A stretch of DNA of 64,000 nucleotides from the NCBI RefSeq assembly GCF_020180945.1, contig NZ_JAIPUL010000001.1:1-64000 (forward strand), in the 5' to 3' direction. Below the pieces are notes generated by a model, which saw only the letters and a program-made list of their open reading frames with translations, did no database searches and was not told where the DNA came from. A program made the position numbers and the translations under genes. Source of the stretch: Lacticaseibacillus kribbianus (lineage in GTDB: Bacteria > Bacillota > Bacilli > Lactobacillales > Lactobacillaceae). Within the stretch, counting starts at the first letter, position 1. Each line of letters begins with the position of its first letter. Positions 30,388 to 61,682 of the stretch are shown one piece after another.

Positions 30388-30466
30388 TGGTATTGTTTGC
30401 CCCACGATAAGCCCCGGAAACTTATGACGTGTCAAACAAGCACAGAAACATTGGAGGAAACAAATC
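30388..30466 (+). promoter_or_regulatory. rplM leader, L13-leader-like structure
   Basis: TTGTTTG (30393-30399) pairs with CAAACAA (30433-30439), enclosing ATAAG (30407-30411) / CTTAT (30421-30425). A leader RNA that autoregulates rplM-rpsI through L13 is known in Bacilli. The form and position agree; the exact family match was not tested. Confidence 0.5.
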
Positions 30467-38800: not shown

Positions 38801-39551
38801 CCTGATTGTGAGCCCAACGGCCCTGGCCTTCGCCGTCGTGCTGGTGCTGATCGCGCTGGGCATCAACCTGCACGAGAAGATCGGCCTGGAAAAAGACATG
38901 GTGATCGGCGTCGTCCGGGCGGTCGTGCAGCTGACCGTCGTCGGGTACGTGCTGACCTACATCATCAAGGTCGACCGGCTGTGGCTGACCGGCTTGATGG
39001 TCGCCATCATCCTCTTCAACGCCGCGCTGAACGCCAACAAGCGCGCGGCCGGCATTCCGCACGCCTTCCCAATCAGCCTGTTGGCGATCGGCACGGCGAC
39101 GATCCTGACGCTGGCGCTTCTGGTCGGCGCCGGCGCCCTGCGCTTCACGCCGAGCCAGATTGTGCCGGTGTCCGGGATGATCGCGTCCAACTCGATGGTC
39201 GCCATCGGCCTGGCCTACCGCAGCATGAACACGCAGTTTCGCGACCAGCGCCAGGCGGTGCTCGAGCGGCTGGCGCTCGGCGCCGACCTCAAACAGGCCT
39301 CGCGCGCGATCGTCCGCGAGGCGATCCGCACCGGCATGGCGCCGACCATCGACTCGGCCAAAACGGTCGGCATCGTTAGCCTGCCGGGGATGATGTCCGG
39401 CCTGATTTTCGCCGGCGTCGACCCGACCAAGGCGATCATGTACCAGATCATGGTCACGTTCATGCTGCTGGCGGCCACCAGCATCGGCTCCGTCATCGCC
39501 TGCTACCTGGCGTACCCGCGCTTCTACAACGCGGACGAGCAGCTGCGGTAG
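38793..39551 (+). CDS. fetB: FetB-like ABC transporter permease (UPF0014 family)
   Basis: A 252-residue membrane protein of the UPF0014/FetB family with about seven segments. Diagnostic parts are VRAVVQLTVVGYVL, the cytoplasmic SRAIVREAIRTGMAPTIDS and the end VSLPGMMSGLIFAGVDP. The start is ATG 38793, behind GGGGAGG inside the end of fetA. Metal specificity is inferred from the family. Confidence 0.85.
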   Translation: MTNLIVSPTALAFAVVLVLIALGINLHEKIGLEKDMVIGVVRAVVQLTVVGYVLTYIIKVDRLWLTGLMVAIILFNAALNANKRAAGIPHAFPISLLAIGTATILTLALLVGAGALRFTPSQIVPVSGMIASNSMVAIGLAYRSMNTQFRDQRQAVLERLALGADLKQASRAIVREAIRTGMAPTIDSAKTVGIVSLPGMMSGLIFAGVDPTKAIMYQIMVTFMLLAATSIGSVIACYLAYPRFYNADEQLR

Positions 39552-39560
39552 CGGTTCTGT

Positions 39561-39658
39561 GATGCCGGGCGCAGGCGTGGCCGCACCGCGGCTTCCGGCT
39601 CCGGGCCAAGATGCCGGGCGCAGGCGTGGCCGCACCGTGGCTTCCGGCTCCGGGCCAA
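39561..39658 (+). repeat. 49-bp tandem duplication
   Basis: Units at 39561-39609 and 39610-39658 differ at one base (CCGCGG versus CCGTGG). It lies just after fetB and leads into the family A element. A piece of the unit (CTTCCGGCTCCGGGCC) also matches, inverted, the outer part of the copy at 60.5 kb. Confidence 0.9.
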
Positions 39659-39833
39659 GGCGGCGGAACGCGTGCGGCTCTCCTGAGCCCGAAGTGCGGT
39701 CTCAGGACCCGCCGTTGCTGTAAACCGGCAAGTGCGGCCGGTTAACAGCAATGTCACGCTGGCTCGCCTTGGCCCGGAGCCTCCAGCCGCGGTGGGCCGC
39801 GCCGGCGCCCTACACAGTGGAGGGTGGCAGTGT
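39659..39833. repeat. Family A dispersed structured repeat
   Basis: Two hairpins in series. TCCTGAG (39681-39687) pairs with CTCAGGA (39701-39707). TTGCTGT plus AACCGGC (39715-39729) pairs with GCCGGTT plus ACAGCAA (39737-39751), with one A/A mismatch. Flanking GGCTCGCCTTGGCCCGGAGC follows. The element recurs inverted at 60398-60566 with compensatory changes in both stems. The rest, to 39961, holds the CTACACAGTGG motif shared with 26 kb and nothing coding. Confidence 0.75.
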
Positions 39834-39961
39834 TTGGTCGAGCGTGTGTGCTTCGCTGAGGCGCCTGACCCGAATCGGGTTTGGCGTTCGCGTGAAGGGT
39901 CGCGTTGCTGTGCTGGATGGACGGCAGGCACCGGCCGCGTGCCGTCTTTAGTACCACCTCA

Positions 39962-39998
39962 GTTTCGCCCGCCAGGTGGTGGGCGAAACTTTTTTTGC
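39962..39998 (+). terminator. Terminator upstream of copY
   Basis: GTTTCGCCCGCCA pairs with TGGGCGAAAC around GGTGG, followed by T8. It insulates the copper operon from upstream transcription. Confidence 0.9.
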
Positions 39999-60202: not shown

Positions 60203-60397
60203 GCGTCGGCTGGCGGAAGCGTGGGGGAATCTCATAGCAACGTTGCCTGGGTCTACATGCTTTCGAGCGGATACTAGGCCGGTGCATGCGGCTGTGCAAG
60301 GCTCGCATCGTGCGCTAGGATGGCGTGACTGGCCAGCTGTTCTGAGCCGACTGTTCGGTAGTAGATCAACCACTTGGTAGGGCGGAGGCAGGGACGC

Positions 60398-60566
60398 GGT
60401 GGTGCTGGAGGCTTCGGTTCAAGGCGAGCCAGCGTGAAATTGCACTTAGCCGGCGGTCTTGGCCGGCTTAGTGCAAGGGCGGGTCTTGAGACCGTACTTT
60501 GGGCTCAAGAGAGCCCCACGCGGACCATTGCCTTGGCCCGGAGTCGGAAGTGCCACCGCGTCCCTG
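60398..60566. repeat. Family A dispersed structured repeat, inverted copy
   Basis: This is the reverse-complement counterpart of the element at 39.6-39.8 kb. TTGCACT plus AGCCGGC (60440-60454) pairs with GCCGGCT plus AGTGCAA (60462-60476). TCTTGAG (60484-60490) pairs with CTCAAGA (60504-60510). Between 60203 and 60398 I see nothing coding, only GC-rich intergenic sequence. Confidence 0.75.
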
Positions 60567-60624
60567 CCGGAGCCCGGCTTCGCCCCAGTCGTTGGATTGC
60601 GCACGGCAACTACCTCTAGAAATC

Positions 60625-60653
60625 AAAAAGGGCCCCGCATCTCTGCGGGGCCC
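60625..60653 (-). terminator. opp operon terminator
   Basis: GGGCCCCGC (60630-60638) pairs with GCGGGGCCC (60645-60653). On the minus strand TTTTT follows. Confidence 0.92.
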
Positions 60654-60719: not shown

Positions 60720-61682
60720 TTAAGCCTGAATCTTGCCCTCGGCCGCCAGCTGCTTGCGGTAGCCGGCTTCTTCTTCTGCGTTGCAGTAGACGAAGTGGCC
60801 CGGGAGCAGCTCGACGAACTTCGGCTTGTCGGTCTCGTAGTGGTGCTGAGACGGGTCGTAGACGATCGGCTTGATGTGGCGGGCGATCTGCGGATCCGGC
60901 ACCGGCACCGCGGACAGCAGGGACTGCGTGTACGGGTGGATCGGGTGGCGGAACAGCTCCTCGGTCTCCGCAAGCTCCACGATGCGGCCGGAGCGGATGA
61001 CGGCGATGCGATCGGAGATGAAGCGGACGACGGACAGGTCGTGGGCGATGAAGAGGTAGGTCAGCTGGGATTCACGCTGGAACTTCTTCAGCAGGTTCAG
61101 GACCTGGGCACGGATGGAGACGTCCAAAGCGGAGATCGGCTCGTCGGCGACGACGAGGTCCGGCTTCATGATCAAGGCGCGGGCGATGCCGATGCGCTGG
61201 CGCTGGCCGCCGGAGAATTCGTGCGGGTAGCGGTACAGCTGTTCCGGCAGCAGCCCGACTTCCTCGAGCATGGTGCGGACCTTGTTGATGCGGTCCTCTT
61301 CGTTGTCGAACAGGCCGTAGTTGTAGAGGCCTTCGGAGATGATGTAGTCAACCGTGGCGCGCTCGTTCAACGAGGCGGTCGGGTCCTGGAAAATCATCTG
61401 GATCTTGCGCTCCAGGTCGTGCTTGGCCTTGCCCTTCAGGCCGCCGTTGATCTGCTGGCCCTCGAAGGTGATGGTGCCGTTGCTGGTCGGGTTGATGCCC
61501 AGAACCGCGCGGCCGATGGTGGTTTTACCGGAGCCGGATTCACCGACAAGCGAGAACGTTTCGCCCTTGTAGATGTCGAAGTTGACATCCTGGACGGCGA
61601 CGAACTTGCCGAAGGTGATCTCCAGGTCACGGAGCGATAGGAGAACTTCTTTTTCAGTCGTCAACGTGCTCACCCTTCCCAT
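60720..61682 (-). CDS. oppF: Oligopeptide ABC transporter ATP-binding protein OppF
   Basis: A 320-residue ATPase of the oligopeptide importer that feeds amino-acid nutrition. Walker [10 protein letters not shown], signature [13 protein letters not shown] and Walker [13 protein letters not shown] are intact. The C-terminal oligopeptide/dipeptide extension ([15 protein letters not shown]) is present. The gene overlaps oppD by 29 nt if it starts at ATG 61682. That ATG lacks a Shine-Dalgarno; GTG 61673 or TTG 61664, near GGGAAGGG, are alternatives. Last gene of oppBCDF. Confidence 0.94.

Follow-up and report, generated by a model that had tools for sequence, protein, structure and literature searches.

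REP and BIME sites are intergenic and often lie close behind stop codons, and in the attC sites of integrons it is one folded strand that matters, the sequence being free while the structure and the unpaired bases are fixed. Earlier studies give REP elements as 20-40 bp long (PMC3733652) and describe bcr1-bcr18 of Bacillus cereus as dispersed intergenic repeats of 100-400 bp, MITE-like and in some cases with a conserved secondary structure, bcr1 having 39 copies on average and up to 130 (PMC6542083, PMC3446304). A small-RNA study of L. casei BL23 reports 3'-UTR and intergenic RNAs (PMC8220740). The repeat analyzed here, present as two inverted copies (A and B) in a 64,000-nucleotide window of the Lacticaseibacillus kribbianus genome, is of a kind already known, that of dispersed structured intergenic repeats such as REP and bcr, and differs from them in its size, its three-way junction, its family-wide fold and its missing mobilizer. 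Searches of the PMC open-access literature listed no description of it, and no Rfam model matched it in the window at the gathering score, in agreement with the original prediction, which did not recognize a named element. Over 18 loci, with E values up to 0.5, the single Rfam match was to the microRNA model RF04159 in locus L124 (40.9 bits versus a gathering score of 168), which we took for a chance match of a long hairpin.

Throughout, R is the strand carrying the GGA/GGA internal loops (minus for A, plus for B) and S is its complement. The repeat resembles GTAG REP/RAYT systems in being intergenic and high in copy number, with a hairpin of defined strand close to the ends of genes. The R-strand stem is preceded by GTAG in 57 of the 79 copies of this genome and in four loci of genomes G014 and G015; in the casei group, GTAG is not conserved at the stem foot. 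However, REPs are single hairpins, whereas this repeat extends over about 200 nt with a three-way junction, and no Y1 (IS200-like) transposase (PF01797) was found in 9 of the 18 carrier genomes of the genus, that of L. kribbianus included. With the bcr repeats, compared by their published descriptions, it shares the dispersed structured intergenic form, but they belong to another genus and the fold reported here was detected in 14 genera. It is like attC in having one folded strand with fixed structure and fixed unpaired bases, but it occurs as single copies and not in arrays. Like MITEs, it is short, non-autonomous, dispersed, devoid of an internal partner gene and present or absent among relatives; its ends pair imperfectly (they are GTGCCAAA/TTTGGCAC in the casei group) and no target duplication was recognized by eye.

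Two copies and their common fold

Copy A occupies about 39614-39820, with R on the minus strand (BLAST and comparison among copies); the core defined by the covariance model is 39637-39790 on the minus strand (173.5 bits), and the outer end lies about 23 nt before it. The copy starts about 60 bases past the stop codon of a gene that ends at 39551 and has a Pfam match to UPF0014. BLAST self-hits revealed a partial tandem duplicate of its first arm (39561..39609, plus strand, the other unit being 39610-39658). An intrinsic terminator found by pattern scan (39961..39998, plus strand) lies downstream of the copy, so that the gene ending at 39551 may, by read-through, carry copy A in its 3' UTR. 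Copy B is inverted, spans about 60370-60578 with R on the plus strand (core 60401-60554, plus, 153.1 bits), and is separated from the minus-strand gene 60720-61664 by a second intrinsic terminator from the same type of scan (60630..60653, minus strand). A scan for promoter-like sites found none at copy B and one near copy A, downstream of it toward the next gene. There is no T run directly at the ends of A or B, nor was one seen by eye at the printed ends of the 79 copies of the genome, which argues that the element is not an intrinsic terminator. Elsewhere in the window, we found a ribosomal protein L13 leader (RF00555) at 30389-30446 (51.8 bits).

Within the window, BLAST aligns A and B with 78.9% identity over 180 nt (E value of 2.2e-38). 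They share a fold composed of the same two hairpins and a long closing stem, with MFE z-scores of -7.85 for A and -9.33 for B (200 shuffles each). In copy A, hairpins P2 (39675..39714) and P3 (39715..39751, with a T.T mismatch on R) are on the minus strand and were delimited by covariation; in copy B, P3 (60440..60476) and P2 (60477..60516) are on the plus strand and come from BLAST, folding and column counts. Read on the same strand, the hairpins show five changes that involve both members of a pair, two in P2 (C:G to T:A and, at its foot, C:G to G:C) and three in P3 (T:A to A:T, G:C to C:G and A:T to G:C). The original prediction had described an element at 39.6-39.8 kb recurring as an inverted copy, with a C:G to T:A replacement in a first stem (P2) and matched changes in a second (P3), all of which we recovered. 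Its contrast of A/A versus T/T at the central mismatch, however, is not a change, since both copies are T/T on the same strand; it came from comparing opposite strands of two near-palindromic hairpins. Its interval, 39676..39781, includes the hairpins but omits the outer stem, which covaries too.

The whole repeat is about 200 nt long (about 200-300 bp overall). On R, it begins with the outer stem P1, made mostly of steps in which GGA stands opposite GGA, followed inward by the CA/GUUCC internal loop, the GCGUG/CACGC inner helix and a junction rich in A; P3, P2 and the return through P1 come next, P1 closing a three-way junction with the two hairpins. In copy A, conserved columns place the inner helix and one strand of the internal loop at 39663..39674 (plus strand, GCGGAACGCGTG; CACGCGTTCCGC on R), and the inner helix and the other loop strand at 39755..39768 (plus strand, CACGCTGGCTCGCC; GGCGAGCCAGCGTG on R); a search pattern that includes the latter motif matched 79 times across the genome. 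Copy B has a variant internal-loop strand, GGACCATTG (60522..60530, plus), found in 7 of 79 copies versus GTTCCGCCG in 65 of 79; two hybrid forms between these loop strands also occur, as if loop modules had been swapped among copies. GGA is found on the two sides of three P1 steps in 58 and 63, 62 and 68, and 35 and 56 of the 79 copies. Several unpaired positions are retained as well, among them the P3 mismatch (T.T in 65, C.T in 5 and T.C in 1, that is, unpaired in 71 of 79, with A:T in 7), an extra A in P2 (78 of 79) and the T-rich 3' side of the P3 loop (74 of 79). By eye, 19 loci of seven genera show the same layout with other stem sequences (GGCUCAG-NNRUG-AAAUU ... CANNNCGUUCCAGCC), the loop motifs recurring among them. 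Individual copies also carry additions: a GC-rich extension of about 15-17 nt in the P3 5' arm of four copies of this genome (L150, L186, L187 and L191), and an insert between core TTTCA and CGCTGGC in three copies of L. daqingensis (G001; L052, L054 and L060). This insert, which has a similar sequence at the broken copy L058, is perhaps another small insertion element.

To measure covariation, we aligned 45 copies taken from this genome, G001 and G010 with MAFFT and used the RNAalifold consensus of the same alignment as the structure. Standard pairs made up 97.7% of 2,294 cells versus 87.3% in shuffles and 35-44% when the partners were slid, the latter comparison favoring a structure taken from the tested alignment. 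Both sides change in 30 of 51 pairs (shuffle mean, 17.0) and 226 cells are doubly changed (shuffle mean, 58.0); none of 500 shuffles reached either value, and all five covariation measures were above every shuffle. Relatedness among the copies inflates this test, but we judged the size of the effect to exceed both that inflation and the self-favoring of the structure. An alignment of the 79 copies of this genome built without structure (77% mean identity) also gave Watson-Crick pairs in 3,843 of 4,100 cells. One P3 pair is T:A in 37, A:T in 36 and unpaired in 4 of 78 cells, and P2 and P3 alleles appear in many combinations, which amounts to recombination between copies or repeated paired change.

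A C.A pair on one strand is a G.T pair on the other, so an excess of either reveals which single strand stays foldable. For the 52 pairs predicted on both strands, the 4,100 R-strand cells comprised, besides the Watson-Crick pairs, 97 G.T, 57 C.A and 103 others (two-sided binomial p of 0.0016 if cells were independent events, which they are not). The excess has the same direction in all four classes of gene orientation (39:22, 29:18, 21:14 and 8:3); transcription-linked mutation should flip its sign with orientation, which is not seen. In 68 matches outside this genome (47 pairs) the ratio was 49:22, in an alignment that was fitted to the R-strand model and leans the same way. The MFE of R was lower than that of S in 70 of 79 copies with RNA parameters and in 65 of 79 with DNA parameters. 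This asymmetry points to one strand, R, being kept foldable. The original prediction had left RNA and DNA hairpins as alternatives; selection on structure is supported, and probably concerns one strand, opposite to that which the prediction read for copy A.

Copy number and apparent movement

The assembly (2.79 Mb in 11 contigs; window and fetched stretches of 64% G+C) was searched with R1, a covariance model built from 45 copies, at E values up to 0.01. With 150 of 2,425 candidates scored, we obtained 82 matches, 79 of at least 109 bits and three weak ones of 48.4, 28.9 and 28.8 bits, the weakest of which falls on the reverse strand of a true copy. Fossils are thus few, with one further match of 48 bits in this genome. 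A 21-base half-motif searched with up to 3 mismatches also gave 79 matches, 63 of them exact, against 1 for a control pattern, and its counts per contig (42, 14, 15, 5 and 3) equal those of the copies; there are no orphan halves at that stringency, and a master copy whose halves are parted by an insert was discarded on the same grounds. A second dispersed intergenic repeat was noticed outside the element in the stretches of this genome (L140-L197) through such 12-mers as CGTAGCTAGCCG, CCGCTCCCGCGT, CTTAGCGGGACG and GGGCCAAAGTGC, each of which occurs 12-15 times on the two strands together, spread over 7-11 of the 58 stretches and in some cases adjoining the element.

Beyond this genome, an exact pattern scan of named genomes returned 17 stretches, 10 in Lacticaseibacillus daqingensis, 6 in L. 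parakribbianus and 1 in an unrelated gammaproteobacterial MAG (L071, an exact 22-base match), which was taken as chance considering that the model did not match it. R1 matched 18 of 30 genomes of the genus. R2, a model from the 68 matches, taking at most 12 matches per genome, detected the repeat in 82 of 251 genomes of the family and 14 of 40 genera. A sample of 198 genomes from the whole order gave 5 with the repeat, each of them from the Lactobacillaceae; absence in these searches is a matter of model reach. Copy numbers were 79, 21 and 6 in three related species, and the genus as a whole spans from none detected to 79. A single casei-group copy used as the query matched 4 of 72,556 plasmid records, including L. 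paracasei and Levilactobacillus brevis, with no empty sites among the plasmid matches listed, and none of 50,697 phage records. The similarity therefore extends far beyond two loci and the pairing is kept in the further copies, as selection on structure had been expected to require.

Presence and absence differ between relatives. A 12.8-kb region with five copies here matches a contig of the sister species G010 that has no element match, all five sites lacking it; one site measures 55 nt there versus 366 here. For two of the six G010 copies, the site is occupied in this genome as well, with flanks 87-90% identical. The pairs at these shared sites are 75% and 79% alike, ranking 56 and 47 of 79 (five of the six G010 copies were compared), and one of these two G010 copies has a 93% identical counterpart at a different site. 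Since the copies at these two sites are not closest relatives, and hence not orthologous, the sites were refilled or rewritten, and the element seems to move. Three copies of G001 near copies of this genome gave ranks of 16, 18 and 44, two of them being broken and one maybe not at the same site.

In the casei group, the unit at site L210 of genome G009 is absent in G005, G041 and G042. At sites L215 and L216 it is absent in G005, and truncated remnants are kept in the outgroup G041, so that absence there looks like deletion. At L209 the whole intergenic stretch differs from G042, and at one casei-group site three relatives have a different sequence all the way from one stop codon to the other, which is not a simple insertion. 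No target-site duplication was recognized by eye at casei-group sites. Among the 3,081 pairs of copies within this genome, no identity exceeds 88.5% (210 columns), although nearest neighbors reach 95.5% when the core alone is compared; nothing here indicates very recent copying. Fresh duplicates and fossils would both be expected of a passive mobile element; the lack of the former and the scarcity of the latter count against one.

Gene context, candidate mobilizers and competing readings

With genes called by a custom codon-usage caller, all 79 cores are intergenic, none overlapping a gene by more than the limit of 60 nt, although at some sites the last codons of a gene run into the outer arm. 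In the S orientation, 35 copies lie between co-directional genes, 21 between convergent genes, 17 in tandem of the other sense and 6 between divergent genes. The original prediction placed both window copies downstream of gene ends, which is correct for them and for the 56 of 79 that follow an S-directed gene; in 32 of these 56 the core starts at most 46 nt past the stop codon. For relatives, with genes predicted by a casei-group model, 35 of the 38 best-scoring loci given had a gene on each side, corresponding to 33 places once two counted double were removed. There the sense bias is reversed with respect to this genome, with 18 anti/anti, 6 anti/co, 6 co/co and 3 co/anti, and an R-directed gene stands on the 3' side of R in 24 of 33. 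Terminators around the copies of this genome gave low counts in a strict custom scan and are not used as evidence. In the casei group, many copies share, by eye, a module on the 5' side of R whose terminator-like hairpin closely follows the stop codon of an R-directed gene, and the element is probably carried with this adjacent hairpin. The module, loosely shared, consists of a GTGGCTGAGTCATAATTCATAGCCAC-like stretch plus the terminator-like hairpin after the stop codon (L198, L202, L203, L205, L207, L208, L210, L215, L216 and L113, by eye).

Two classes of mobilizer were considered. RAYT/IS200 enzymes were rejected given that no Y1 transposase was found in this genome, and retromobilization (derived from a group II intron, retron or DGR) given that no reverse transcriptase (PF00078, RVT_1) was found in it; the latter was also not found in 12 of 18 carriers of the genus, and neither enzyme in 8 of 18, which makes both unlikely as obligatory residents. 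A linked autonomous gene was rejected too: among 142 neighboring proteins compared with Pfam (147 minus 5 touching the ends of the fetched stretches), no transposase appeared in the 25 most frequent of 228 families, the most frequent being ABC_tran with 6 members.

We favor, at about even odds (roughly 0.5), a non-autonomous, high-copy mobile repeat of the Lactobacillaceae selected for the fold of its R strand. Such a repeat would spread between intergenic sites, mostly behind genes, while selection would keep the R fold, that is, P1 with its GGA/GGA and CA/GUUCC loops closing the P3/P2 three-way junction. The folded R strand would be recognized as single-stranded DNA by an enzyme that copies or moves it, perhaps as REP hairpins are by RAYT transposases and attC hairpins by the integron integrase, and this enzyme need not belong to the Y1/IS200 family nor be a canonical reverse transcriptase. 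A strand-specific fold, retained unpaired positions and changing sites are what would be expected of a protein recognizing a folded single strand. The more specific proposal, a class of mobile DNA in which a non-Y1, non-RT enzyme recognizes the three-way junction and fixed loops of a folded single strand and inserts it at gene ends, is possible but tentative. As a by-product, structured 3' UTRs would arise where no terminator separates a copy from the gene that it follows.

The strand could just as well fold as RNA, and the copies are nearly all intact though diverged, which leaves room for a role in place. This would be a structured RNA acting in cis (3'-UTR stabilizer, terminator-associated or leader) or an RNA of the R strand, its fold being selected copy by copy. 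The 21-base motif is exact in 63 of 79 copies even though any two copies differ by at least 11.5% (210 columns), and the purine-rich R internal loops, the A-rich junction and the retained unpaired positions look like RNA. The copies with a core close behind the stop codon of an S-directed gene may be in its mRNA, and the R-directed genes 3' of R in relatives fit as well. However, gene orientation is inconstant, tandem copies numbering 35 versus 17 here and the reverse in relatives (18 anti/anti versus 6 co/co), and an S-directed 3' UTR would contain S, the less stably folding strand and the one poorer in wobble pairs. Copy B, moreover, lies beyond a terminator and lacks a promoter-like site, that near A lies downstream, and the sites differ between species. 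Altogether, we regard an RNA acting in place as rather unlikely.

It is improbable that the repeat is a protein-binding or architectural site (for gyrase or a nucleoid protein), kept as a cruciform for DNA topology. Intergenic cores often near stop codons recall REP/BIME, but a cruciform would lack the strand asymmetry observed, and copy number varies within one genus from none detected to 79, with copies on plasmids too. Least probable of all is quasipalindrome template switching at replication, a mechanism that PMC8794818 describes as able to create and maintain hairpins, with one arm repaired from the other and no selection on structure: multi-base paired alleles with few unpaired intermediates occur in P2 and P3, and the A:T at the P3 mismatch in 7 copies is as repair would give, but 71 of 79 copies still leave that mismatch unpaired, the extra P2 A is kept, the T-rich 3' side of the P3 loop indicates that loops are not freely inverted, loop motifs recur in seven genera and strand asymmetry is not predicted, although the process may still supply mutations.

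The repeat looks like an undescribed small mobile element, or a structured-RNA family: a highly covarying structure across a bacterial family, with dozens of copies in this genome and no match in Rfam 15, that plasmids of two food species, L. paracasei and Levilactobacillus brevis, also carry. On either reading, annotation of Lactobacillaceae genomes should mask or mark it, and existing transcriptomes should be searched for it. If it is RNA, it would be an unusually repeated structured RNA; if it is mobile, it would need a new mobilizer and would offer a handle on the movement of structured single strands.
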